DNA from: Bacteroidota bacterium
Lineage (GTDB): Bacteria; Bacteroidota; Bacteroidia; NS11-12g; UBA9320
Assembly: GCA_016124755.1 (NCBI GenBank)
Contig: WGNA01000008.1
Location: 124,001 to 188,000 of the forward strand
Direction: 5' to 3'
DNA length: 64,000 nucleotides
Each line of letters begins with the position of its first letter. The stretch's first letter is position 1. Positions 1,564 through 58,909 of the stretch are shown here, in pieces. The notes under the pieces were generated by a model that saw nothing but the letters and a program-made list of their open reading frames with translations, had not been told where the DNA came from and ran no database searches. A program made the position numbers and the translations under genes.

Positions 1564-1640
1564 CCGATTAGTGTTTTCTATGTTCTGCCAGTCACGGATG
1601 AATTTTTAGCGCATCATGTCAGAAATCTATGAAATAAAAG

Positions 1641-1705
1641 CTCAGTGGCAGGTTCTCGAACCTCTACAAATCATAGAATGCCAAACACATGATCGGCTTC
1701 GGTAT
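1641..1705 (+). repeat. 65-bp dispersed repeat, copy 1 of 4
   Basis: This copy aligns without gaps to 7441-7505 (minus), 42398-42462 (plus) and 56972-57036 (plus). The conserved parts are a GGT..TCGAA block near position 11, a purine-rich centre, and the 3' end ATCGGCTTCGGTAT. CGAA near the 5' side can pair with TTCG at the 3' end, so each copy may fold into a long imperfect hairpin. It lies in the gap between two lipoprotein genes. Confidence 0.75.
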
Positions 1706-1746
1706 ATTTTTGATTTAATGTTCACAATTTAAATTTGGTTCAAGGA

Positions 1747-2827: not shown

Positions 2828-3349
2828 TTATTTTATTCTGACTTCTAATTCTTTCCCAAGACCAACTTCGATTATTTTTTTCAGTGTTCCCAGTTCAACA
2901 TCCGATTTGTCATTTTCAATGCGGGAAATGTATGTTCTGGAAGTACCGCTCATAATGGCAAGATCCTGCTGAGAAAGACCGGCACTGATTCGTGCTTCAC
3001 GTATCATCTTCCCAAGTTGCATTATAAATTCAGATTTTTCCGGATGACTATGCTTTAATAAGATATCTGCACCAATCTCAAAAGGTACTTTTTCTTTTTG
3101 TCCGTTTCTTAAGGTAATAAACTGTTCTACGTTGTCAAACGAAAGTGTGTTATTTCTAAGAGTAACTTTTTTTAATTCGTTGTCATCATTTAAAATATTG
3201 GCTGTAGATTTTTCATTAACTCCTATACTCTTTAAAACTTTATAAAAATCAATTATTCTGGACTCTCCATTGTTAAATGTAACATTGACCGAGTGATTCT
3301 CAACCCAATTTATTTTTAAGATCCTTGGGATTTTAATTGTCTTTCTCAT
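2828..3349 (-). CDS. DUF2442 protein fused to an XRE-type HTH (likely antitoxin/regulator)
   Basis: The N-terminal half (residues 1-90) looks like DUF2442, with WVENHSVNVTFNNGESRIID followed by LRN and FEIGADILL. The C-terminal half (about 105-173) is a Cro/C1-type helix-turn-helix: IREARISAGLSQQDLAIMSG, then SRTYISRIENDKSDV. Its ATG overlaps the stop of the upstream DUF4160 gene (ATGA, 4 bp), so the two are co-translated. DUF4160 and DUF2442 genes are often paired and are predicted to form TA-like modules. The HTH part would let this partner repress its own operon. The toxin/antitoxin roles are inferred from family and context. Confidence 0.85.
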   Translation of the reverse strand: MRKTIKIPRILKINWVENHSVNVTFNNGESRIIDFYKVLKSIGVNEKSTANILNDDNELKKVTLRNNTLSFDNVEQFITLRNGQKEKVPFEIGADILLKHSHPEKSEFIMQLGKMIREARISAGLSQQDLAIMSGTSRTYISRIENDKSDVELGTLKKIIEVGLGKELEVRIK

Positions 3350-3582
3350 CTTAGATCCGGATTTAATTCATAGAACACTTCCAGTGCCCAATTCGCGTTG
3401 CCTGCCAACCAGTCCATTGCCTTTTTTAATTGTCTTGATGGTAGTTCTCCAACGTACACTTCCTGAGATTCAATAGTTAACAGAATTTCAAATTCATTGT
3501 AAACAACATGGACATGGGGCGGTCGGTGATCACCATTATAAATGTTGATCTTGATCCCGTCAAACATGTCAATGGTTGGCAT
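3346..3582 (-). CDS. DUF4160 protein (putative toxin partner)
   Basis: The protein is 78 aa and full length for DUF4160. It has the usual opening MPTI..FDGIKI.IY and the HRPPHVHV signature, then an acidic β-strand region (FEILLTIES) and a C-terminal helix (RQLKKAMDWLAGN). It is the first gene of a two-gene operon and overlaps the DUF2442-HTH gene by 4 bp. DUF4160 proteins are small, unresolved in biochemistry, and recurrently linked to DUF2442. A TA-like function is a family-level prediction. A run of ATTAGATACA-like bases just upstream (3601-3625) could hold the promoter or operator. Confidence 0.85.
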   Translation of the reverse strand: MPTIDMFDGIKINIYNGDHRPPHVHVVYNEFEILLTIESQEVYVGELPSRQLKKAMDWLAGNANWALEVFYELNPDLR

Positions 3583-3657
3583 TCCACAAATATAGAAATG
3601 TATCTAATTAGATACAAATTGAAATAGATTTTTAGCGAAGTCCCGACTCACAGGAAG

Positions 3658-7351: not shown

Positions 7352-7440
7352 TTATCCTGAGGTCGATCAGGTATTTGGTTTGAAATATTTCTTACTGTTT
7401 CGAATACCCGACATGGATTTATATGAATGTATGTGGATGT

Positions 7441-7505
7441 ATACCGAAGCTGATTTGATTTTTGCCTCTTTCTGATTCAAATGGCATGGAGTACCCGGCT
7501 ATGGT
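7441..7505 (-). repeat. 65-bp dispersed repeat, copy 2 of 4 (inverted)
   Basis: Read on the minus strand, this aligns ungapped with the copies at 1641, 42398 and 56972. It keeps GGGTACTC, a purine-rich AGAAAGAGGCAAAAA centre and CAGCTTCGGTAT at the end. It sits in the 392-bp gap between a hypothetical gene and the 3' end of a TlpA-like gene. The rest of that gap (7352-7440 and 7506-7743) shows no gene, terminator or other repeat that I can support. Confidence 0.65.
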
Positions 7506-7743
7506 GTTGTTGTTCAATGCTGCAGTTCAGCTAAAAATTAGTCATTGGTCATCCAACAACCTGTTGAACAAGTAGAGCTGATTGAATTAGCAGAATACAT
7601 TTAATTAGAATATACGATTTACTCAATTCGTTGTTCAAATTCACAATGGTGACTTAAGCATTTTAAAGGTGAGGGAAGTATAGTTATGCGGAGTATAAGC
7701 AGTATATGCTGAAATATTGAAGTATTTATCCGACTGCTGAAGG

Positions 7744-10577: not shown

Positions 10578-10820
10578 AGAATCAGACTACCATTTGCTGG
10601 TTTCACAAAACGACACAAACCTCTTCATTCAATAGATAAAACTGCGCACTCCCTTCAAATGCCTAAAAGACCACAGCTTTTTAATTTTTAGCTCAACAAT
10701 TTGGAATGCCGGAAATTACCGCGCCTCTGCGTGAGAACTAACGGTATATTTTCTAATTTATACGGATTACGCCGAATAATGGTTTTTCCGTTCAACATTA
10801 ATATTCAAAGAGCTTCGTCT

Positions 10821-10875
10821 GCAATTCTCTCATTCTCCAATTCCCCAATTTATGCTGACAATGCCGAACCCGGTA
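10821..10875 (-). repeat. Inverted copy of the repeat family at 58331-58620
   Basis: The reverse complement contains CGGGTTCGGCATTGTCAGCATAAA followed by TTGGGGAATTGGAGAAT, as at 58331-58353 and 58409-58455 on the plus strand. It lies in the 343-bp gap between the SRPBCC gene and a convergent gene. Nothing else is supported in 10578-10920; a 71-aa open frame at 10701 looks like chance. Confidence 0.65.
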
Positions 10876-10920
10876 ATAAGTTGTTACACGTAATTTTCAA
10901 AGTCATTCGTCAGTAATTCC

Positions 10921-12021
10921 TTAATGCTTTGCTGTTACGTAGCTTGCTTCTGAAAGATATTGTACTTTTTCCTTTCCGTCACTCGACTTCATTTTGATCA
11001 ACAAACCGTTATCGCCATACACGTAATCAATAATCCAATTTGATTTCAATTTTCCACTGCCGTTATACCAGGAATATTTACGGGATAGAATTTGCCCTGC
11101 TTCGTTAAATTCCTCATGATTTTGACGATTTTTCTTGCCATCTGAGTAATTGGTTGACGATGATGAAATCAAAATTGTGTCTGACACGAATATCTTAGTC
11201 CACTCAACGACCAACTGTTCTTCAACTCCTTTGAAATATTTAAATGAAATAATTTTATCCACTTTATTATATACATAAATGGATTTTGTAATTTTCCCTT
11301 TTTCATCAGTTGATTGCCAAACCGAAGTTGTGGTTCCATCCGGATTCTCGGTCTTTTTCAGACAAACAGTGGAAGTGTCTTTATGCCTTGCAATCTCTTT
11401 CCCTTCCTCACTGCATGCATAGCTCCACACATATTTTTCCTTTCCCTTTCGATTAAAATAGCGCGTTGTTTTTCTGTCTCCATTAGGATAATACTCGTAA
11501 ACATAATAGCTCTTGAATTTGCCATTTATATATGTCGAATATTTGATAATAGCGCTGTCGTTGAATTCTGAAACGGAACTATAGGTTCGATTTTTTATTC
11601 TATTGGAATATTGAATTCTATGTCCGGCCTCATCGTATTTGGCGGAATAAAACAGAAGAGTATCTCCTTTAGAATTTATCTGATATCGTTGAACCACTTT
11701 TAACTGATCGTCATAAACAAAATGATCATCCTTTTTAATTTTATTTTTGGCGTTATAGGTTACAATGCGCACAGGAACTCCTTGTTGATTGAAATAATAC
11801 CGGGATTTCGTTGTAGATTTAACCTTGTCCTTTTTAACTTTCGTGTAGCGTAAATCCAAGGATTCCACGGAGTTTTTTTTGATTAATTCCTTTAAGTATT
11901 TGTTGTCATCAAAACCGAGGTCTAATCTGATTTTGCCATCATCACCAATATAATATTGCGCCCTGGCAACACCGGCGGAAAGAAAAAGAAGCAGCAGCGG
12001 GATTTTAAAAAACGTTTTCAT
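10921..12021 (-). CDS. Exported protein with YD-repeat-like strands
   Basis: A cleavable signal peptide (PLLLLFLSAGVARAQ) is followed by about 340 residues of repeated strand-turn units rich in Tyr, Asp and Gly: YYFNQQGVPVRIVTYN, FVYDDQLKVVQRYQIN, KYDEAGHRIQYSN, EYYPNGDRKTTRYFNRKGK. This resembles YD/RHS-type β-units or MORN-like toxin_dehydrogenase-free proteins of Bacteroidota. No membrane anchor or sorting tail is visible, so it is likely periplasmic. Function unknown. It stands alone, convergent with the SRPBCC gene and divergent from the barrel gene at 12173. Confidence 0.75.
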   Translation of the reverse strand: MKTFFKIPLLLLFLSAGVARAQYYIGDDGKIRLDLGFDDNKYLKELIKKNSVESLDLRYTKVKKDKVKSTTKSRYYFNQQGVPVRIVTYNAKNKIKKDDHFVYDDQLKVVQRYQINSKGDTLLFYSAKYDEAGHRIQYSNRIKNRTYSSVSEFNDSAIIKYSTYINGKFKSYYVYEYYPNGDRKTTRYFNRKGKEKYVWSYACSEEGKEIARHKDTSTVCLKKTENPDGTTTSVWQSTDEKGKITKSIYVYNKVDKIISFKYFKGVEEQLVVEWTKIFVSDTILISSSSTNYSDGKKNRQNHEEFNEAGQILSRKYSWYNGSGKLKSNWIIDYVYGDNGLLIKMKSSDGKEKVQYLSEASYVTAKH

Positions 12022-20190: not shown

Positions 20191-20230
20191 GTTGGCAAGT
20201 TAGGGAATGGATTCTTTAAGGAATGTAGAA

Positions 20231-21685
20231 TTCTGATCATCTCCAATTTTACGCGCTCTTACACTCTCCCGCTCTCCGCTCTTCTTGTTTCCGCTACAGT
20301 TACTGTTACTGTTACCGTTACCGAGTTCGTTCGCTTCGCTCATGATGACGATCGTTCTCGGAGGAGAAAGGGATTCTTCGCGGAGCTCAGAATTTTATTA
20401 ATCTCAGTTTAATGCGCTCTTATGCTCTCCCGCTCTCCGCTCTTCCGTTACCGTTTCCGTTACCGTTACTGTTTCTATTACCGTTACCCTTCATGGGTTC
20501 ATTCGCTTCGCTCACGATGACGATCGTTCTTCGGGGTAAAAGGGGATTCTTCGCAGAGCTCAGAATTTTATTAATTTCTAGTTTTACCCGCTCTTTCGCT
20601 CTCCCGCTCTCCGCACTTCTGTTACCGTTACCGTTACAGTTGCCGTTTCCCTTCATGGGTTCATTCGCTTCGCTCACGATGACGATCGTTCTTTGGGGTA
20701 AAAGGGGATTCTTCGCGAAGCTCAGAATTTTATTAATCTCAGTTTAATGCGCTCTTATGCTCTCCCGCTCTCCCGCTCTTCAGTTACTGTTACCGTTACA
20801 GTTTCTGTTACCGTTACAGTTTCTGTTACCGTTACCGTTACCGTTACTGTTTCCGTTCATGGGTTCATTCGCTTCGCTCACGATGACGATCGTTCTTCGG
20901 GGTAAAAGGGGATTCTTCGCAGAGCTCAGAATTTTATTAATTTCTAGTTTTACCCGCTCTTTCGCTCTCCGCTCTTCAGTTACTGTTACTGTTACCGTTA
21001 CTGTTTCTGTTACCGTTACCGTTTCCGAGTTCATTCGCTTCGCTCACGATGACGATCGTTCTTTGGGGTAAAAGGGGATTCTTCGCGGAGCTCAGAATTT
21101 TATTAACTTCTAGTTTTACCCGCTCTTTCGCTCTTTCGCTCTCCGCTCTTCTTGTTACCGTTACCGTTACCGTTACCGTTTCCCTTCATGGGTTCGTTCG
21201 CTTCGCTCACGATGACGATCGTTCTTTGGGGTAAAAGGGGATTCTTCGCGTAGCTCAGAATTTTATTAATTTCTTGCGTTACCCGCTCTTTCGCTCTTTC
21301 GCTCTCCGCTCTTCTTGTTACCGTTACCGTTACAGTTACCGTTTCCCTTCATGGGTTCGTTCGCTTCGCTCACGATGACGATCGTTCTTTTGGGGTAAAA
21401 GGGGATTCTTCGCGGAGCTCAGAATTTTATTAATCTCAGTTTAATGCGCTCTTTTGCTCTCCCGCTCTCCGCTCTTCAGTTACTGTTACCGTTACAGTTA
21501 CCGTTTCCCTTCATGGGTTCATTCGCTTCGATCATGATGACGATCGTTCTTTGGGGTAAAAGGGGATTCTTCGCGGAACTCAGAATTTTATTAACCTTAA
21601 GTTTGAAGCGCTCTTACGCTCTCCCGCTCTTCGCTCTTCTTGTTACCGTTACCGTTACCGTTACCGTTACCGTTACCGTTTCCCT
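20231..21685. repeat. Tandem array of eight ~162-bp units with GTTACCG hexamers
   Basis: Eight copies of a composite unit lie between sanA and the racemase. Each has (i) CGCTCTTTCGCTCTCCCG words, (ii) a run of GTTACCG/GTTACTG/GTTTCTG hexamers of variable length, and (iii) a constant part with CTTCGCTCACGATGACGATCG, GGGGTAAAAGGGGATTC and TCAGAATTTTATTAA. The word GATGACGATCG starts at 20344, 20517, 20678, 20882, 21048, 21211, 21374 and 21536, giving periods of 173, 161, 204, 166, 163, 163 and 162 bases. The long open frames in it are products of the periodic sequence, not genes. The final hexamer run reaches the stop codon of the racemase gene. Confidence 0.95.
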
Positions 21686-22756
21686 TCACACCACCTTCTT
21701 CTCCACATAATCCGAATTCATCACGGTAAGCACTCCCGTATAATTGAGTGTAAACCGGATTTCATCGCCGAGACGGATCGGTTTTTTGCACGAACCCACA
21801 TCCAAAACAATCATATCGGAACTGCCACCGATTATTTCGATGTCGGGATCTACAGGTGTAAGGTCGGTTGGATTTACGTCCAGCACACCGAGGTCGATAA
21901 TGGCACGTGTGCTTTCTTCTCCCAATTGCGAAAGATCAATTTCCGGAGATTCTCCCAACAGATTGGTTCCCTGTAATCCGGTTGCAACAACGGGCTTTTC
22001 CCTTATTTCAATTACCTCCGTCGCCAGAATAAAAACATCCTGTTTCATCTTTTCAACCGGTTTGTTATGATAAATGTCGTTGCCGAAAAACAGCGTTTCT
22101 CCGATCCGGAAATGATTACAGCCTTTCGGAATCTGCTTCATCGCCAGCAACGGAAGTGTGATCGAAGAACCGGCAGATACCCAGCGGATATTAGAATGAA
22201 ACCGGGCATTTATTAATTCGCAATACAAACTCAGTTGAATCAATTTATCCTTCGAAGGAAGAATTCCGTTCAAACAATTGAGATTTGCACCAAGACCGAT
22301 CACCTCTATGTTCTTTAGTTCAAAAACATCCTGATAAAACTGAATCAGTTCTTCGCCCATTACACCTTCCCGCAAATCACCAAGTTCAATCATAATAATG
22401 ATTTTGTGAATCACATTTTGCCGCGCAGCTTCTTCATTAATGAGGCGAATGGTTTTTATATGCGTATTAAAACTAACGTCGGCACAGGCAACTAATCTTT
22501 TAATACCATTTAATGGTGGCGGTTTTATATAAACCCTTTGAATTTCGGGAGCGAGTTTTTTGAGTTTTTCCAGATTACTCAGTCGGGAATCGTGAATTTC
22601 CATTGGATTTAACCGAACGAGTTCTTTTAAATAAATCTCATTGCCACAGAGAATTTTGGCAACTACACCCCAGTTTTTATTATACTTTTTAAATCGCTCA
22701 TCTAAATATTTAAAATTTAGTTCGAGCGATTTTCTTTTTAATTCAATGTAGGCCAC
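21686..22756 (-). CDS. PLP-dependent amino-acid racemase (alanine/ornithine racemase type)
   Basis: The protein has the fold-type III racemase order: N-terminal TIM barrel with the PLP-lysine segment VVAKILCGNE (about 32-41), then YIKPPP, IMIELGDLREG, GLGANLNCLNG and WVSAGSSITLPL (phosphate-binding), FRIGETLFFG, and a C-terminal β-domain. This is the branch of alanine racemases related to ornithine racemase, not housekeeping Alr. Start at 22756 overlaps the end of the symporter gene by 14 bases, so translation is coupled. Together they suggest uptake of an amino acid or amine-like solute and racemisation of it. Substrate unproven. Confidence 0.88.
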   Translation of the reverse strand: MAYIELKRKSLELNFKYLDERFKKYNKNWGVVAKILCGNEIYLKELVRLNPMEIHDSRLSNLEKLKKLAPEIQRVYIKPPPLNGIKRLVACADVSFNTHIKTIRLINEEAARQNVIHKIIIMIELGDLREGVMGEELIQFYQDVFELKNIEVIGLGANLNCLNGILPSKDKLIQLSLYCELINARFHSNIRWVSAGSSITLPLLAMKQIPKGCNHFRIGETLFFGNDIYHNKPVEKMKQDVFILATEVIEIREKPVVATGLQGTNLLGESPEIDLSQLGEESTRAIIDLGVLDVNPTDLTPVDPDIEIIGGSSDMIVLDVGSCKKPIRLGDEIRFTLNYTGVLTVMNSDYVEKKVV

Positions 22757-37650: not shown

Positions 37651-40092
37651 ATGAGTCGTTTAAAAAAGTTTATCCCCCTCACATTCATTGTTTTTCTCTC
37701 AATATTTACCGTTCTGATTTCGATTGAATGGGAAATGGAAATTCCCGGAATGGAAGAAAATGAAGAAGAACCCGGATTTTTTGAGCAGTTCAAATTGATG
37801 AAGCAAAACGAGAATGGCGAATATCCATCCGGTTTGTGGAAAGAGTGGAGCAGACAAACACGATCAATGTTCAAAGCTCAGTTCTTTTCGGATGTTCGGG
37901 AAATTGGTCCCACCAACATCGGTGGCCGAATCCGGGCAATTGCCGTCGATTACGATAACAAAGACCGATGGATTGCAGGCAGTGTTTCCGGTGGAATATG
38001 GGTAACGGAAAATGCCGCTGCCAGTTGGACTCCACTTGATGATGATGCGACTACACTTTCGGTTTCGGCAATTACTCAAAGTCCGTTTAATCACAAGGTA
38101 TTTTATTACAGTACCGGTGAAGTTTCCACAGGGGTTTATATCAACTACGATGGTTACGGCATTTTTAAATCGGTAGATGGCGGGAAATCATTCCAGCATC
38201 TCGATTCCTCTAATGTTACCGGATTTGAGAAAACCTGGGATATTGAACATTCCCGCACCGACAGTAATACATTTTACGTGGCAACCATTGGTAACGGTCT
38301 TTGGAGATCCCGCGACGGAGGTGAATCTTTCGAGCAACTTTTCAAATCTTCCTCCGATATTAATGACGTAGATGCGCTGAACGACGGAACGGTTTACTTT
38401 ACCCGATCCGGAAGTGGTGTTTATCGCTTCAAAGAACAGGATACAGTTCAAATTGAACATCTCAACAACAACGGTTTGCCGACTTCGGCGGTAAGTCGTG
38501 TTGTAGTTGAACCGTGTTTAAGCGATCCGAGTGTTGTATACGCTGCATTTGCCGGAACGGATCGTGCGTCTTTGGCCGGTCTTTATAAATCAACGGATTA
38601 CGGAAAGAGCTTTGTGGAATTAACTACAGGTGGTTCTGCCAGCTACGATCAGACCTGGTATAATTTCCTTTTTAAAGTGGATCCGGAAAACCCGGACTTT
38701 ATTTTAATGGGTGGAGTGAACGCCGAATATTCTAAAGACGGAGGAAAAACCTGGTCGGTTCTTACCAGTGGACATACCGACTTTCACAATGCTTTTTACA
38801 TTCCGGGTACGAGTGATTTCGTAACCGTTTCTGACGGCGGTCTGTACATTCACAACAAAACAACGGCAAGCTCAACCGCCAAAAACGGGAATACCAATCT
38901 GAACATCACCCAGTTTTATTGCGGAGCGTGTTATCCGACCGGCGACAAAGTAATTGTGGGAGCACAGGATAACTGGACATCGATCAATGTGGCCGGTGGA
39001 TCAACCTTTGTGCAGAAGTGGCCCGGCGATGGAGCTTACAATGCTGTTTCGGAAGATGGACAAACCTTATATTGTTCTTCTCAGAACGGCTATTTAGGCC
39101 GGTCGACCAATGGTGGAAATTCATTCCAGAGCATCTATTACGGTTTGGCAAACAAAGTCGGAACAACTGATTTTTGGTTTGTTAATCCGTTTGAATTGAA
39201 TAAACGCGACGCAACAAATGTTTTCTTCCCGACTAAAAATGTTGTAGCCGTAACTTCAAACAGCGGTTCTTCGTGGAAGGTAATTACCAAAACAATTCCC
39301 GGAAATATTTTCTCGATCGGAATAACCAACGAAGAATCACCAACCGTTTATTTCGGTGGCCAGAGCAGTTTGCTGTACCGAATTCCGGATGCAAATAATG
39401 CAACCCCGGGTGATGAGTTCAAAATGTTTACGCTGGCTCCGGCCGAAGCACGTGGTGGTTTTATCGGCAACATTGAAGTGGATCCGAACGATAATTCGAC
39501 CATTTTTCTGGCGATGAATAATACCAGCACTTTACCGAGAATCTGGAAGGTACTCAATGCCGACACAGAATCGCCTACCTGGGTGAATGTTAGTGCAAAC
39601 CTTCCAACCGGACTTCCTGTGAACTGGATTGAAATCGATCCGAAGAACAGTGATCACATCATGATTGCAACGGATTATGGTTTATATGTTACAGTGAACG
39701 GCGGAGGCTGGTGGGAAAAAGAAACGCGAATTCCGAATGTCTATATTTCCATGATCCGGCTTCGGGAATCAGATCGACGACTTTTTATTTTCACATACGG
39801 ACGTGGAGTTTGGGTTGCCGATTTGGAGGAAAATATCTTCTCTTCTTCAAAACTTTCTGCGAATCTTTCGGCCTCGGTTAAAATTTATCCGAATCCTGCC
39901 AGTGACTATGTTCAGATTGAAGGGGCATCCGGTAAATATGAAATTTTCGATTTACAGGGAAGTCAAATCGCAACCGGAACAACAAATTCCGGAGACAAAA
40001 TCCCGACATCATATTTCAAAAACGGGCTGTACTTCATTCGCGTTTACGACCCAAAAGGAACGGTAACCCGAAAGTTGGTTTTACAACACTGA
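37651..40092 (+). CDS. BNR/sortilin-like propeller protein with T9SS type A sorting tail
   Basis: ATG at 37651 gives a signal-anchor-like start (FIPLTFIVFLSIFTVLISI); an upstream ATG at 37606 would place a poor leader before it. The mature part has many BNR/Asp-box-like blades of the VPS10/sortilin-type propeller: GIFKSVDGGKSFQHLDSSN, GLWRSRDGGESFEQLF, GLYKSTDYGKSFVEL, YSKDGGKTWSVL. The last about 75 residues are a type A sorting domain: VKIYPNPASDYVQIEG, YEIFDLQG, YFIRVYDPKGTVTRKLVLQ. It should be exported by T9SS and attached to the cell surface. Possible glycan-binding or adhesin role (inference). Confidence 0.93.
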   Translation: MSRLKKFIPLTFIVFLSIFTVLISIEWEMEIPGMEENEEEPGFFEQFKLMKQNENGEYPSGLWKEWSRQTRSMFKAQFFSDVREIGPTNIGGRIRAIAVDYDNKDRWIAGSVSGGIWVTENAAASWTPLDDDATTLSVSAITQSPFNHKVFYYSTGEVSTGVYINYDGYGIFKSVDGGKSFQHLDSSNVTGFEKTWDIEHSRTDSNTFYVATIGNGLWRSRDGGESFEQLFKSSSDINDVDALNDGTVYFTRSGSGVYRFKEQDTVQIEHLNNNGLPTSAVSRVVVEPCLSDPSVVYAAFAGTDRASLAGLYKSTDYGKSFVELTTGGSASYDQTWYNFLFKVDPENPDFILMGGVNAEYSKDGGKTWSVLTSGHTDFHNAFYIPGTSDFVTVSDGGLYIHNKTTASSTAKNGNTNLNITQFYCGACYPTGDKVIVGAQDNWTSINVAGGSTFVQKWPGDGAYNAVSEDGQTLYCSSQNGYLGRSTNGGNSFQSIYYGLANKVGTTDFWFVNPFELNKRDATNVFFPTKNVVAVTSNSGSSWKVITKTIPGNIFSIGITNEESPTVYFGGQSSLLYRIPDANNATPGDEFKMFTLAPAEARGGFIGNIEVDPNDNSTIFLAMNNTSTLPRIWKVLNADTESPTWVNVSANLPTGLPVNWIEIDPKNSDHIMIATDYGLYVTVNGGGWWEKETRIPNVYISMIRLRESDRRLFIFTYGRGVWVADLEENIFSSSKLSANLSASVKIYPNPASDYVQIEGASGKYEIFDLQGSQIATGTTNSGDKIPTSYFKNGLYFIRVYDPKGTVTRKLVLQH

Positions 40093-40208
40093 GCGGAAAT
40101 CGAAAAGCGAAGAACGAAAAGCGAAGAACCAAAATCGAAGAGCCAAGAGCGAAGAACGAAGAACCAAAATCGAAAATCGAAAAACGAAAAACGAAAAACG
40201 AAAAACTA

Positions 40209-40243
40209 AAATCGAAGAATCAAATCCTCGCTCTTCGATTTTC
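40209..40243. terminator. Bidirectional terminator between convergent genes
   Basis: AAAATCGAAGA (40209-40219) pairs perfectly with TCTTCGATTTT (40233-40243), with A-run before and T-run after, so it can work for both converging genes. It ends a 150-base low-complexity stretch (40093-40208) of GAAAAGCGAAGAACGAAA words with a period of about 8-10 bases. Confidence 0.75.
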
Positions 40244-40267
40244 AGACTTCGCTTTTCGATTTTTAAA

Positions 40268-41313: not shown

Positions 41314-42321
41314 TTGGCCACAGAAGACTTTCATACCTTATTCGAGTTTGATGCAGACCGTGGCCAGAGTCCGGTTCGCATCGATAAATTTTTAGTTGAT
41401 CGCATCGAAGGAATTACCCGAACTAAGGTGCAGCAAGGCATTCAGGAAAACCGGGTTCTTGTGAACGGACAAGTGGTTAAGGCGAATTATAAAGTTCGTC
41501 CGGGCGACAAAATACGCATTATTGTTTTTGAGGAACCCAAAGATTATGAGGTTAAGCCGGAGAAAATGGATCTCAACATTGTGTATGAAGACGATGTTCT
41601 TTTGGTGTTGAACAAACCGGCAGGAATTGCAGTTCATCCCGGCGTTGGAAATTATACCGGTACGCTCAGCAACGGACTCGCTTATTATTTTAATGATGGA
41701 GTTCATGCCATGAACCGGCATCCATATCTCGTTCACCGGATCGATAAAAATACCAGCGGGTTATTGCTTGTCGGAAAAACCGAAGCTTCAACCAAACATC
41801 TGGCAGATCAGTTTAAAGCGCACACAACCGTTCGCAAATACAACGCGTTAGTTTGGGGAAGTCTGGAAGAAAAGGAGGGAACAATCAAGGGAAATATCGG
41901 ACGCAGCACACGTGAACGACAGGTTTTTACTGTGGTAGATGAAGATCAGGGAAAACATGCGGTTACACATTATAAGGTGTTGGAAGATTATACGTATGCG
42001 TCTTTAATCGAATGTGAACTCGAAACCGGAAGAACGCATCAGATCCGGGTGCATTTAAAACACATCGGTCATCCACTTTTTTCTGATGAAAAATACGGGG
42101 GAAGAAGAATCCGGAAAGGCGTTGTTTTTAGCAAATACAAACAGTTTGTTGAGAATTGTTTCGAGATAATGCCGCGACATGCACTTCATGCAAAAACACT
42201 TGGATTTGTACACCCAATAACCGGAGAACAAATGTTTTTCGACAGCGAATGGCCGGATGATTTTGCCGAGGTAATTCGACGGTGGAGAAGCGTGAACGAC
42301 AGCTATTCTTTTGATGAATAA
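41314..42321 (+). CDS. rluD: 23S rRNA pseudouridine synthase RluD family
   Basis: The protein has an S4 domain (about 20-85, IDKFLVDRIEGITRTKVQQG), then the RluA/RluD catalytic domain. The catalytic Asp lies in HRIDKNTSGLLLVGKT (about residue 149), and the segment RTHQIRVHLKHIGHPLF is the active-site partner motif. The start is a TTG at 41314, the only one that fits the N-terminus. It isomerises uridines in helix 69 of 23S rRNA. The 335-aa length fits RluD. The gene runs divergently from the isomerase gene. Confidence 0.94.
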   Translation: MATEDFHTLFEFDADRGQSPVRIDKFLVDRIEGITRTKVQQGIQENRVLVNGQVVKANYKVRPGDKIRIIVFEEPKDYEVKPEKMDLNIVYEDDVLLVLNKPAGIAVHPGVGNYTGTLSNGLAYYFNDGVHAMNRHPYLVHRIDKNTSGLLLVGKTEASTKHLADQFKAHTTVRKYNALVWGSLEEKEGTIKGNIGRSTRERQVFTVVDEDQGKHAVTHYKVLEDYTYASLIECELETGRTHQIRVHLKHIGHPLFSDEKYGGRRIRKGVVFSKYKQFVENCFEIMPRHALHAKTLGFVHPITGEQMFFDSEWPDDFAEVIRRWRSVNDSYSFDE

Positions 42322-42397
42322 ATGATCATCACGACTGGACTCCTGGTATGTGATAGTTCTCCTATAAGTATCTCACCCGCAACGAAAGAGTATTAAA

Positions 42398-42462
42398 CCG
42401 ACAGACGGGTACTCGAAGCATTGAGAATTAGAAAGTGCCAAAAACCGGATCGGCTTCGGTCT
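42398..42462 (+). repeat. 65-bp dispersed repeat, copy 3 of 4, abutting the RAYT stop
   Basis: Aligned ungapped with the other copies (GGGTACTCGAA at the 5' side, ATCGGCTTCGGT at the 3' side). CGAAGC can pair with GCTTCG across the copy. The last two bases overlap the TAG stop codon (42461-42463) of the transposase gene on the minus strand. The remaining part of the gap (42322-42397) shows nothing I can name. Confidence 0.8.
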
Positions 42463-43012
42463 ATAAAAAATCAATATCGATTACACCTTTTATTCCCTGA
42501 TAATCTCTCGCACTGCTGTAGAGATAGTATTCCGGTTTGTCAACAATTCCTGCTGCTACGGGATTATTATGCAGGTATGTAAGACACCTGATTTTAATTA
42601 ATGGTGATCTTAGTTCAATTGGATGATTTTCTTGTCTCCAGAATTGATGCGTTTCATTTCTTGAATTGGATTTGCCAGCTGAGCGGAAAACACGTAACAT
42701 CCAGGAACGTCTGCTCTCTTTGCGAAGATTTTCAATTTTGCGCAGGTTTCTAACAGACGTATATTTTTTGAAATCTCGTAAAATGTCACTTAATCGATAG
42801 CCCGCCTTTGCGGAAATGATTAAGTGAAGATGATTGCTCATAATTACCCAGCCATGAATGTTTAATCCTTTTTTCTCCTGACAAAACCTGAGACTTTCAA
42901 CAACAATCTTTCTATATGTTTCTCTTGTGAAAACATCAATCCATTCAACTACCGCGAATGTTATAAAATAAATTCCTTCCTGATTCCTGATTTTATATCC
43001 ACCTGAAGCCAT
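42461..43012 (-). CDS. REP-associated tyrosine transposase (RAYT, Y1_Tnp family)
   Basis: ATG at 43012 (MASGGYKIRNQEGIYF) is the start; a longer frame to 43111 runs into the palindrome. The domain is Y1 HUH type: YFITFAVVEWIDVF (β strand), HGWVIMSNHLHLIISA with the HxH metal-binding pair (HLH), and a C-terminal helical part with YLHNNPVAAGIV. The catalytic Tyr is expected in the IRCLTYLHNN-like helix or the YYLYSSARDY segment. RAYTs are single-copy IS200/IS605 relatives that process REP palindromes. A BIME-like palindrome pair lies 69 bases upstream and a 65-bp repeat directly downstream. Confidence 0.92.
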   Translation of the reverse strand: MASGGYKIRNQEGIYFITFAVVEWIDVFTRETYRKIVVESLRFCQEKKGLNIHGWVIMSNHLHLIISAKAGYRLSDILRDFKKYTSVRNLRKIENLRKESRRSWMLRVFRSAGKSNSRNETHQFWRQENHPIELRSPLIKIRCLTYLHNNPVAAGIVDKPEYYLYSSARDYQGIKGVIDIDFL

Positions 43013-43080
43013 GAAACAAAATTGGCTGTAAACCAAATTTATTTTTAGAATTAAAAAACTAACCGCATCATAAAAAAACC

Positions 43081-43260
43081 ATCCGTCGTCTGCCGTGCAG
43101 GATCGGGCCATGGCGACGACGGATATGTTATTTCCAATAACAATTTTTGAAATTTATTCCGGAGAACAATCTTGTTTATGGCAGTACTTATTTTAAATGT
43201 TCTTATTCAGAACAATGTCCGTTGTCGCCGAAGCACAGGCCGTCCCGCAGACGACAGACA
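43081..43260. repeat. BIME-like pair of REP palindromes upstream of the RAYT
   Basis: Unit 1 has ATCCGTCGTC (43081-43090) inverted as GACGACGGAT (43115-43124), with TGCC/GGC extending the stem. Unit 2 (43216-43260) has TGTCCGTTGTC paired with GACGACAGACA, needing two G-T type pairs. The reverse complement of unit 2 resembles unit 1, so the units are in opposite orientation about 90 bases apart, as in a BIME. The spacing to the RAYT start is 69 bases. Confidence 0.8.
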
Positions 43261-43297
43261 TATTATTTAGAAGTTGAATATGTAATAATTCGTCTTA

Positions 43298-55312: not shown

Positions 55313-55712
55313 CCGATCAAAAATCGTCGATCTGAGAAAGCATGTTATATTTCGCGCAGAGACGCAGAAATATATACTCTGAAAAGATAGATTGAAAGTA
55401 GAAAAATCCCATTCTTATTTCGAAACAAATCTTGAGTCGCAGAATCGTGTTGCCACGATTTATTTCCCAAAATCAATTCGGGATACCCGATCAAAAATCG
55501 TCGATCTGAATTCGTACTTTCAAATTGCGTGACTTTGCGGTTAGATTTTCACGCAGAGACGCAGTGCGAAACATATTCTGAACTACATTGATTAAAACCA
55601 ATAAGATCCCATTCTTAATTCGAAACAAATCATGAGTCGCAGAATCGTGTTATCACGATTTACTTCTAAAAACAATTCGGGATAACCGATCAAAAATCGT
55701 CGATCTACGATC
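55313..55712. repeat. Tandem ~200-bp repeats with a conserved short hairpin
   Basis: Two full units and one remnant lie in the 816-bp gap before 55896. Matching words are CATTCTTA.TTCGAAACAAAT (55411 and 55611), GAGTCGCAGAATCGTG (55434 and 55634) and GATCAAAAATCGTCGATCT (55315, 55489, 55688), almost exactly 200 bases apart. Both units hold a perfect hairpin AATCGTG-N4-CACGATT (55443-55460 and 55643-55660) whose loop differs (TTGC versus TTAT) while the stem is kept. GCAGAGACGCAG words precede each unit. The rest of 55080-55895 (to 55312 and from 55713) shows no gene. Confidence 0.85.
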
Positions 55713-55895
55713 GTACCTTAAAACGTGATTTTGGTTTGGTTGATTTACAAAGTTGATTAAGATGAAGTGCACCACGGAGCGTCATCCCGGACTCGTTCCG
55801 GGATCTCATTCTGTTTCCGATAAGACTAATTAATACACGACACCCTGTTTACCAAATACTCCGAAATAATTTAACAACACCTCCGTTCCCTCCAC

Positions 55896-56836: not shown

Positions 56837-56971
56837 TTATTTCAATCGCAAATGGACATAGGTTTCGTCGTCCATTAAATTACTGGAATTTCAATTATTC
56901 ACTTAACAGAATAAATTTTAGAAACGAATTCTTGACAAGTGTATATTTCGCCAGCAACCTATGAATACAAA

Positions 56972-57036
56972 CCCACAGGCGGGTAATCGAAACCGTTCAA
57001 TACCTCGTAGTCTAAAACACTAATCGGCTTCGGTAT
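56972..57036 (+). repeat. 65-bp dispersed repeat, copy 4 of 4
   Basis: Aligned ungapped with the other three copies (GGCGGGTAATCGAA on the 5' side, AATCGGCTTCGGTAT on the 3' side). It lies in the 319-bp gap before the pirin gene. Other parts of the gap (56837-56971, 57037-57155) show only a possible GATATTCG promoter box near 57129-57136. Confidence 0.75.
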
Positions 57037-57155: not shown

Positions 57156-58319
57156 ATGCAAAAAGGAAATCGCCGGAGTTTTCTTGGAAAAGTAACATTA
57201 GGCATCAGCGGTTTGGTGGCACTGCCATACACCGGAATCGGCAGGTGGTTGAGAGGAAACGAAGATGAAAAACCGGAGGTAAAAACGATACGATCTAAAA
57301 AAGCGCTTGGATTTCAATGGGATACTCTTGATCCGTTTTTGTTTTGCGTGCATCACGAAGATGATTTCCCGAAAGGCAATCTCAATTGTGGTCCCGATCC
57401 CGAGTATTTTAAAGGCCGGCACATGGGAGACGATTTTATTATTAAAGACGGTTTTCGGATGTATCACGGGCAGGTTGTTCCCGGATTTCCCGGACACCCG
57501 CATCGCGGTTTTGAAACCATAACAGTGGTACGGAAAGGATTTGTGGATCATGCCGATTCGATGGGCGCGTCGGGACGATATGGAAATGGCGACGTGCAAT
57601 GGATGACGGCCGGGAAAGGTGTTCAGCATTCTGAAATGTTTCCGCTGTTAAAAGAAGATCAGGAAAATCCGATGGAATTGTTTCAGATCTGGCTGAATCT
57701 GCCCAAGATTAACAAGATGGCTGATCCGCATTACAAAATGTTGTGGAGTGAGGAAATCCCTGTTTTTGAACACGAAGATGATCAGAAGAAAAAGACGCAT
57801 ATCGAAGTAATTGCCGGTTCATTGGAAGATCATAAAGCTCCTGCACCGCCACCGGATTCCTGGGCAAAATCTGATGAAAATACGGTCGCGATCTGGAATA
57901 TTTCCATGGAAGCGGGAGCGGTTTATACCATTCCCAAAACATCGGCCGGAACAAATCGGATGTTGTATTTCTATGAGGGAAATTCAATTGATCTTAATGG
58001 AGAAATCATTGAAAAATACCACGGTATTGAAGTGGAACCCACGCATGATCTGGTGATCAAAAATCCGGATACGCACGGTTCGAGTATTTTGGTTTTACAG
58101 GGCAAACCTATTGGGGAGCCGGTAATTCAATACGGTCCGTTTGTGATGAATACCAAACAGGAAATTCAACAGGCTTTCGACGATTATCACAAAACGCAAT
58201 TTGGCGGTTGGCCCTGGAACAGGAGAGACGTCGTTCACGATCGCAAAAAAGGCCGCTTTGCCAAACACGCGGATGGCACGGAGGAGGTACTGACGAATGC
58301 CTTGCTAAATAAAGGTTAA
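57156..58319 (+). CDS. Pirin-family protein with a twin-arginine (Tat) signal
   Basis: The cupin-type pirin fold is shown by HPHRGFETITVV and GNGDVQWMTAGKGVQHSE, which hold the metal-ligand His residues and Glu, and FQIWLNLP. Pirins bind Fe(II)/Fe(III); some show quercetinase activity. Unlike most pirins, this one starts with NRRSFLGKVTLGISGLVALP, a Tat-type signal with RRSFLGK, so it is probably folded in the cytoplasm with its metal and exported. It is 387 aa, longer than the usual about 290, with an extended C-terminus. The final codons (TACTGACGAATGCCTT) match the intergenic repeat downstream, so its C-terminus may be repeat-derived. Confidence 0.9.
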   Translation: MQKGNRRSFLGKVTLGISGLVALPYTGIGRWLRGNEDEKPEVKTIRSKKALGFQWDTLDPFLFCVHHEDDFPKGNLNCGPDPEYFKGRHMGDDFIIKDGFRMYHGQVVPGFPGHPHRGFETITVVRKGFVDHADSMGASGRYGNGDVQWMTAGKGVQHSEMFPLLKEDQENPMELFQIWLNLPKINKMADPHYKMLWSEEIPVFEHEDDQKKKTHIEVIAGSLEDHKAPAPPPDSWAKSDENTVAIWNISMEAGAVYTIPKTSAGTNRMLYFYEGNSIDLNGEIIEKYHGIEVEPTHDLVIKNPDTHGSSILVLQGKPIGEPVIQYGPFVMNTKQEIQQAFDDYHKTQFGGWPWNRRDVVHDRKKGRFAKHADGTEEVLTNALLNKG

Positions 58320-58330
58320 CAATTGATAAT

Positions 58331-58620
58331 CGGGTTCGGCATTGTCGGCATAAATACTGACGAAAGCCGGAATGCAAAGGGTACGTCGGTAAGATAAGAT
58401 ATGGCTTTGTCAGCATAAATTGGGGAATCGGGGAATTGGGGAATTGGAGAATTGGGGGACGGACGAAAGCTGGAATGCAAAGGGTACGACGGCAAGATAT
58501 GATATAGCTTTGCCAGTATAAATTGGGGAATTTGAGAATTACTGACGAATGCCTTCGTTCATTTGGTAATCCAAATATTTTTATGTTAGGCATTGTCAGC
58601 ATAAATTGGGGAATGTTGAC
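58331..58620. repeat. Tandem ~103-bp repeats with GGGGAATTG words
   Basis: Two adjacent units start with GACGAAAGC.GGAATGCAAAGG at 58359 and 58462 (103 bases apart), followed by GCTTTG.CAG.ATAAATTGGGGAAT. A third partial unit (58582-58620) has GGCATTGTCAGCATAAATTG. An inverted copy lies at 10821-10875. GGGGAATTG is repeated in the first unit. It begins right after the pirin stop codon. Confidence 0.8.
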
Positions 58621-58663: not shown

Positions 58664-58858
58664 GAAAGTGACAACCTTTATTTTTCACGCAGAGACGCAA
58701 AGAATTTCAGAACTCAAAATGATTTGGGGAAGAACGAACTGTTGTGGTCTTTGGCAGCTTTTATTTTGAGCCGCAGAATCCTGTTACCACGATAGTCTTC
58801 TGAAGAATCAGTTTAGGGTTTTACATCAAAAAAACGTCGATCTGAGATCGTAACTACA
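58664..58858 (+). repeat. Diverged copy of the 200-bp repeat family at 55313-55712
   Basis: The stretch holds TTTTTCACGCAGAGACGCA (58680 on), GAGCCGCAGAATCCTG..ACCACGAT (58768-58793) and ACGTCGATCTGAGATCGTA near the end, in the same order as in the 55-kb copies. The hairpin is imperfect here (AATCCTG versus CACGATA). It lies in the gap before 58910. Confidence 0.65.
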
Positions 58859-58909
58859 AATCAACTGATTCCTTATTTTCGACGCGCCGGAAAAGTCCGG
58901 GTGGAAACA

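Follow-up and report, generated by a model that had tools for sequence, protein, structure and literature searches.

A RAYT gene of a Bacteroidota bacterium between its probable cognate REP pair and a copy of a lineage-specific, MITE-like palindromic repeat

A predicted gene for a REP-associated tyrosine transposase (RAYT) in a Bacteroidota genome (4.05 Mb in 39 contigs) is bracketed by two unlike palindromic repeats, which raises the question of whether one or both of them belong to it. An earlier note had placed the RAYT at 42461–43012, an inverted palindrome pair upstream and a 65-bp element ending on its stop codon downstream, and had taken the two flanks either as the left and right ends of the RAYT's own element or one of them as its substrate. 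In our analysis of the window, i.e., the whole stretch of 64,000 nucleotides, the gene (an open reading frame on the minus strand) and the upstream pair were both confirmed. We consider it quite probable that the locus is a REPtron without its downstream REP, and that an unrelated, lineage-specific, decaying MITE-like repeat of about 140 nt lies there now. The arrangement at the RAYT locus is mostly ordinary and made up of known kinds of element, namely:

41314–42321, plus strand: intact gene for an rluD-type pseudouridine synthase, with a conserved divergent neighbor and, in relatives, no RAYT downstream
42323–42462, plus strand: copy of an imperfect palindrome of about 140 nt, filling the gap between the rluD and RAYT stops; the 65 bp of the earlier note are its right part
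42461–43012, minus strand: predicted RAYT/TnpAREP gene, 183 aa, subclass 2.6 type (NF047646, motifs, AlphaFold)
43081–43125, plus strand: REP1, cognate REP palindrome with 12 pairs and a loop of about 19 nt, separated from the RAYT start codon by 68 nt on its upstream side
43217–43262, minus strand: REP2, second cognate REP, opposite in orientation to REP1 and forming a BIME/REPIN-like pair with it

The deduced RAYT protein scored 98.1 bits against the NF047646 profile (cut-off 80) and also matched Pfam Y1_Tnp. It harbored an HUH motif (H61-L-H63 in SNHLH), the tyrosine motif YLHNNP with Y146 as the catalytic residue by alignment, W125, and a YSS motif, and the spacing of 83 aa from H63 to Y146 is near the subclass 2.6 value. 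Alignment with 24 relatives revealed nine invariant columns, including H63, W125, H148, and N150, and conservation of H61, Y146, and P151 in at least 90%, while the profile of this alignment brought the HUH and Y--NP residues onto the HUH and DYIYINP of 4er8. Both the HUH and the tyrosine residues, whose lack on close alignment would have counted against a RAYT for the earlier note, were found in these comparisons. The AlphaFold model (pLDDT 93.6) had 4er8 as its top PDB match (E 1.2e-8, 15% identity), and the C-terminus is full-length compared with the orthologues of loci L080, L082, and L043. A longer reading frame from 43111 was rejected, as it starts inside REP1 and the orthologue alignment favors the start at 43012; the tyrosine of DFKKYTS was dismissed as the catalytic one, being F or H in several orthologues, with the published motif and 4er8 indicating Y146. 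Judged by sequence, the protein fits an HUH/Y1 RAYT of the Bacteroidetes TnpAREP subclass 2.6 (group 5), and it is one of five Y1-type genes in the genome. If it acts as E. coli TnpAREP does, it would bind the hairpins of its own REPs in single-stranded DNA and nick and rejoin them, and we infer such an activity on the upstream REPs.

REP1 and REP2 have GTCGTCTGC...GGCGAC in common. Since the pattern GTCGTCTGCN{10,35}GCGAC matched the genome at REP1 and REP2 only (and at seven scattered sites in 146 relatives), a pair arising by chance is very unlikely. BLASTN of the pair against the genome returned only itself, besides short matches at E ≥ 0.06, and a covariance model built from REP1 and REP2 alone (R2) matched the genome twice and 36 other family members not at all. 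R2 was also run on the window together with six RAYT loci (L080–L082 and L042–L044; 91,077 bases including the 64 kb of the window), where all of its 12 matches sit at RAYTs. At L080, it identified a palindrome downstream (3336–3385, 26.9 bits) and one upstream of the RAYT (2709–2748, 12.1 bits); at L082, one on each side (1934–1981 downstream and 1276–1322 upstream, 18.6–19.9 bits); and at L081, two upstream (2891–2938 and 2647–2694) and one downstream (3565–3608, 12.9 bits). Taken alone, the upstream matches of L080 and L081 and the downstream one of L081 are weak (12–19 bits), and L042–L044 had no R2 matches. The RAYTs of L080, L081, and L082 are 60–62% identical to that of the window, and the stem CCGTCGTC/GACGACGG of the window REPs corresponds to CCGTAGTC/GACTACGG in the orthologue REPs, with one pair changed on both sides. 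Plain local alignment of REP1 and REP2 with the orthologue flanks showed no clear gain over shuffled queries. Because R2 finds REPs on both sides of these three orthologues, the upstream pair is the cognate REP type of the window RAYT. The suggestion that one flank is a substrate thus stands for the upstream pair as regards the REP type, and is not supported for the 65-bp element. Contrary to a second expectation of the earlier note, this RAYT-bearing genome shows no enrichment of the upstream REPs: instead of a dispersed population, two copies were found. The R2 scan of eight whole genomes gave a single match and missed the known REPs of the L080 genome, i.e., it is insensitive, and any decayed REPs elsewhere in the window's genome may have escaped it.

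Comparison with further RAYT loci revealed how such palindromes are usually laid out. At 26 of 37 loci, the upstream and downstream flanks matched each other above the 99th percentile of mismatched-locus controls, 18 of these 26 in inverted orientation. The set consisted of 23 loci (L040 and L042–L063, with L064–L070 and weaker matches dropped) plus 14 of another 21 (L080–L093, with L094–L100 dropped), and the control comprised 1222 of 1332 pairs, Cytophagales pairs with one common REP type being omitted; 19 of the 37 loci pass when these pairs stay in. Some direct flank matches, such as those at L048, L049, L061, L062, and L081, reflect duplicated stretches that extend beyond the REPs. The 11 loci below the threshold include the window as well as L080, L090, and L091, the last three of which have related palindromes on both sides by eye. 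L042 has palindromes downstream only, so that one-sided RAYT loci occur elsewhere, too. Two further arrangements were observed at these loci: L047 (G143, 400–1950) harbors two adjacent RAYTs, each within its own, different inverted palindrome pair (the second by eye), and at L060 (G117) the 5' part of the RAYT and its upstream palindrome are duplicated in tandem (by eye).

A search of 12 genomes with the pattern GTCCGTAGN{1,31}GACTACGGAC resulted in matches in three (8, 3, and 3 sites) and in none of the other nine, including this one; the reversed control had no matches. In the genome of L081 and L082, three RAYTs, 74–77% identical to one another, account for six of the eight sites, one lies elsewhere, and one was left out, while two of three sites in the L043 genome and one of three in the L080 genome lie at RAYTs. 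For this one REP type, nine of 14 sites in three genomes are hence at RAYTs and four are not, with one left out. Because the REPs stand at both gene ends, are low-copy and mostly confined to these ends, and because one genome holds three such similar RAYTs, it is conceivable, if rather doubtful, that in subclass 2.6 the whole REP-RAYT-REP cassette and not the REP alone is the mobile unit, the window copy having arrived at the 3' end of rluD and lost its right end. Such a unit would be at odds with the published view, in which the REPtron is not mobile as a whole and there is no evidence of tnpAREP mobility (PMC8266576).

On the downstream side, a genome search with 42370–42480 gave 25 matches, and aligning these with their flanks resulted in an element of about 140 nt, TATACC...GGTATA. 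The 65-bp element was correctly placed at its end on the RAYT stop and underestimated in size, being only the right part of the palindrome. Together with the copy at 42323–42462, the window harbors five copies or part-copies, the others being:

1602–1706, plus strand: partial, internally deleted copy
7354–7434, minus strand: partial copy
7440–7562, minus strand: internally deleted copy
56896–57036, plus strand: full-length copy

A model of the repeat (R1) had at least 56 matches in the genome at E ≤ 0.1 and at least 48 at E ≤ 1e-3, both being lower bounds with 150 of 1289 first-look candidates scored. Of 146 relatives, 39 have RAYT matches, and none of the 146 revealed a convincing copy under stricter filters and with up to 21 candidates per genome scored; five genomes had a single R1 match of 18–21 bits, which we take as chance, and two of these (G117 and G144) carry RAYT matches. 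The consensus of 13 full-length copies folds into a single long hairpin, in which 35 of 40 pairs are Watson-Crick (about −47 kcal/mol), and individual copies retain 16–26 of the 40. Of the cells, 68% pair versus 29–42% for slid partners, and covariation was no better than in shuffles, 100 of 500 of which reached its score. Since pairs were lost without compensating changes, the pattern is that expected if copies of an originally palindromic element decayed independently. In several copies, a similar stretch in the middle is missing. Among 27 copies looked at, positions between divergent, tandem, and convergent genes were found.

Being short, dispersed, intergenic, and self-complementary, the repeat has the features of a palindromic, ERIC-like MITE. 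Its ends suggest a TA target, and no longer duplication was seen. A transposase gene with such ends was not found in the one candidate region, on contig C18, where the reading frames between two left-half copies (6909 and 10242), taken as a possible composite element, look like ordinary cellular genes by eye. Searches revealed no match to an Rfam RNA and none to suggest a plasmid- or phage-borne repeat. Integron attC sites have RYYYAAC/GTTRRRY ends, and these were absent by eye; the occurrence of copies in both orientations and on many contigs also spoke against such sites. A possible second RAYT C-terminus beside another copy (L019), a short reading frame, did not hold up, and no match was found there. 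In the RAYT, REPtron, REPIN, and Bacteroidetes MITE literature, as far as it was covered, no description of the repeat was found. In our best reading, it is probably a lineage-specific, decayed palindromic MITE-like family of ordinary type with about 50 copies, unrelated to the RAYT and presumably moved by some other transposase.

The copies are unevenly distributed, with one on contigs C1, C23, C25, and C31 (1.2 Mb; 14.4 expected), 11 on C29, and seven on C24, and with C20 also among the rich contigs; the bias persists when copies within 5 kb of each other are counted as one (simulated P about 5e-4, 22 of 39 contigs). In one cluster (L136, C24:4500–24400), the copies separate short genes that differ in function and are mostly on the same strand, and some repeat flanks are themselves duplicated. 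Apart from this family, the window harbors further repeats, about 200 nt long and containing AAAATCGTCGATCTGA and 'CGCAGAGACGCA' motifs (55313–55723 and 58805–58860), inverted copies, 47 kb apart, of a repeat with AATTGGGGAATT units (10818–10921 and 58282–58614), an array of direct repeats of about 163 nt (20209–21727), and, in an intergenic region, a tandem repeat of 14 nt that also has an inverted copy (40080–40263).

At the junction itself, rluD ends at 42321 and the repeat begins at 42323, its last bases overlapping the RAYT stop codon. The downstream REP of L080–L082 begins about 6–12 nt past the RAYT stop; within 400 nt downstream of the window RAYT, neither GTCGTC nor GACGAC occurs, and atypical REP-like palindromes flank this RAYT on its upstream side only. 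Of 29 rluD loci from relatives (six further matches left out), 28 have a divergent sugar-phosphate isomerase gene beside rluD, in one case in part, and in the stretch examined none of the 29 contains a RAYT or a GNAT gene. As these loci lack a RAYT, the gene came to the 3' side of rluD within the lineage of this genome. Several relatives have a conserved intergenic stretch (AAAGTAGTAGTAGTAATATCC...) 3' of rluD, perhaps a small RNA (L148–L150). We picture the window locus as a one-sided REPtron with inverted REP1 and REP2 upstream, whose downstream REP would have been lost and have its place held by a copy of an unrelated MITE-like repeat, with one edge over the RAYT stop. This repeat would once have spread through the genome and now be decaying. 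The events may have followed either order, the repeat inserting at the REPtron or the REPtron arriving beside the repeat.

Against this stands the earlier suggestion that the downstream element is a REP-like family spread by the RAYT, i.e., a second, large substrate. The palindrome does abut the RAYT stop exactly, it is dispersed in intergenic regions, and subclass 2.6 REPs are known as atypical (PMC6006769). However, the at least 48 genome matches adjoin one of five Y1-type genes, with one of about 48 copies at this RAYT, RAYT-bearing relatives lack convincing copies, and orthologues carry a different REP type at this place, unlike the repeat in sequence and related to the window's upstream pair, so that we regard such a substrate as very improbable. 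Nor do these observations support a right end of a RAYT element, and an enrichment of the 65-bp element in RAYT genomes, which had been proposed as a check, was not found. A structured RNA or bidirectional terminator kept at gene 3' ends would agree with the stable consensus fold and with several copies within 30 nt of stop codons. Here, too, the probability is very low, as covariation did not exceed that of shuffles, some copies are found between divergent genes (L101, L110, and L127), Rfam had no match, and single copies have lost about half of the pairs.

The ends of IS200/IS605 elements can differ, and the REP pair and the repeat do bracket the RAYT, which would suit two unlike ends of one RAYT-containing mobile element, as the earlier note had envisaged. 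We give this hardly any credence: the repeat occurs alone at some 47 other places, and in the orthologues a single REP type stands at either flank of the gene. A second locus bracketed by both repeats was not found, the REP pair occurring once in the genome. The favored reading, a REPtron with an unrelated repeat beside it, sets a likely enzyme-substrate pairing, i.e., the RAYT and its upstream REPs, apart from an accidental neighbor, and the compact REP type common to RAYTs of about 60% identity could serve to test how subclass 2.6 recognizes REPs without a GTAG foot.

Compared with known systems, the downstream repeat resembles ERIC and RU-type (PMC2759123) palindromic MITEs in being intergenic, dispersed, and about 100–170 bp long; besides these traits, it has internally deleted subforms and TA-rich ends. 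Its sequence is unrelated to theirs as far as searched, and no Bacteroidota genome other than this one was found to carry it. GTAG and CGTC palindromic repeats, of which one type flanks RAYT genes, were described by Di Nocera et al. (2013, PMC3733652); CGTC repeats have stems of 8–9 bp and loops of 4–5 nt and are not found beside RAYTs. The window REPs are likewise short palindromes and contain CGTC, but they have 12-pair stems and loops of about 19 nt and flank a RAYT. With E. coli TnpAREP (4er8, REP-bound), the window RAYT shares the predicted fold and catalytic residues and a REP pair inverted as in a BIME/REPIN; in contrast to it, identity is 15%, the REP sequence is another one without a GTAG foot, and REPs are not found genome-wide. 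The closest likeness is to subclass 2.6 (Bertels group 5), for which Quentin et al. (2018, PMC6006769) give 179 aa, NH[LIV]H, YIH[QN]NP, an SS motif, occurrence in Bacteroidetes, an HUH-to-Tyr distance of about 83–85 aa, atypical flanking palindromes without a GT[AG]G foot, and, as criteria, an HUH-to-Tyr spacing near 82 aa and a 21-aa insertion between alphaC and beta4. Unlike this description, the window REPs lie upstream only, with two copies in the genome, and the tyrosine motif YLHNNP has L for I. In its length of about 180 aa, its motifs including SS, their spacing, its Bacteroidetes origin, and palindromes without a GT[AG]G foot, the window RAYT matches the subclass as described there.
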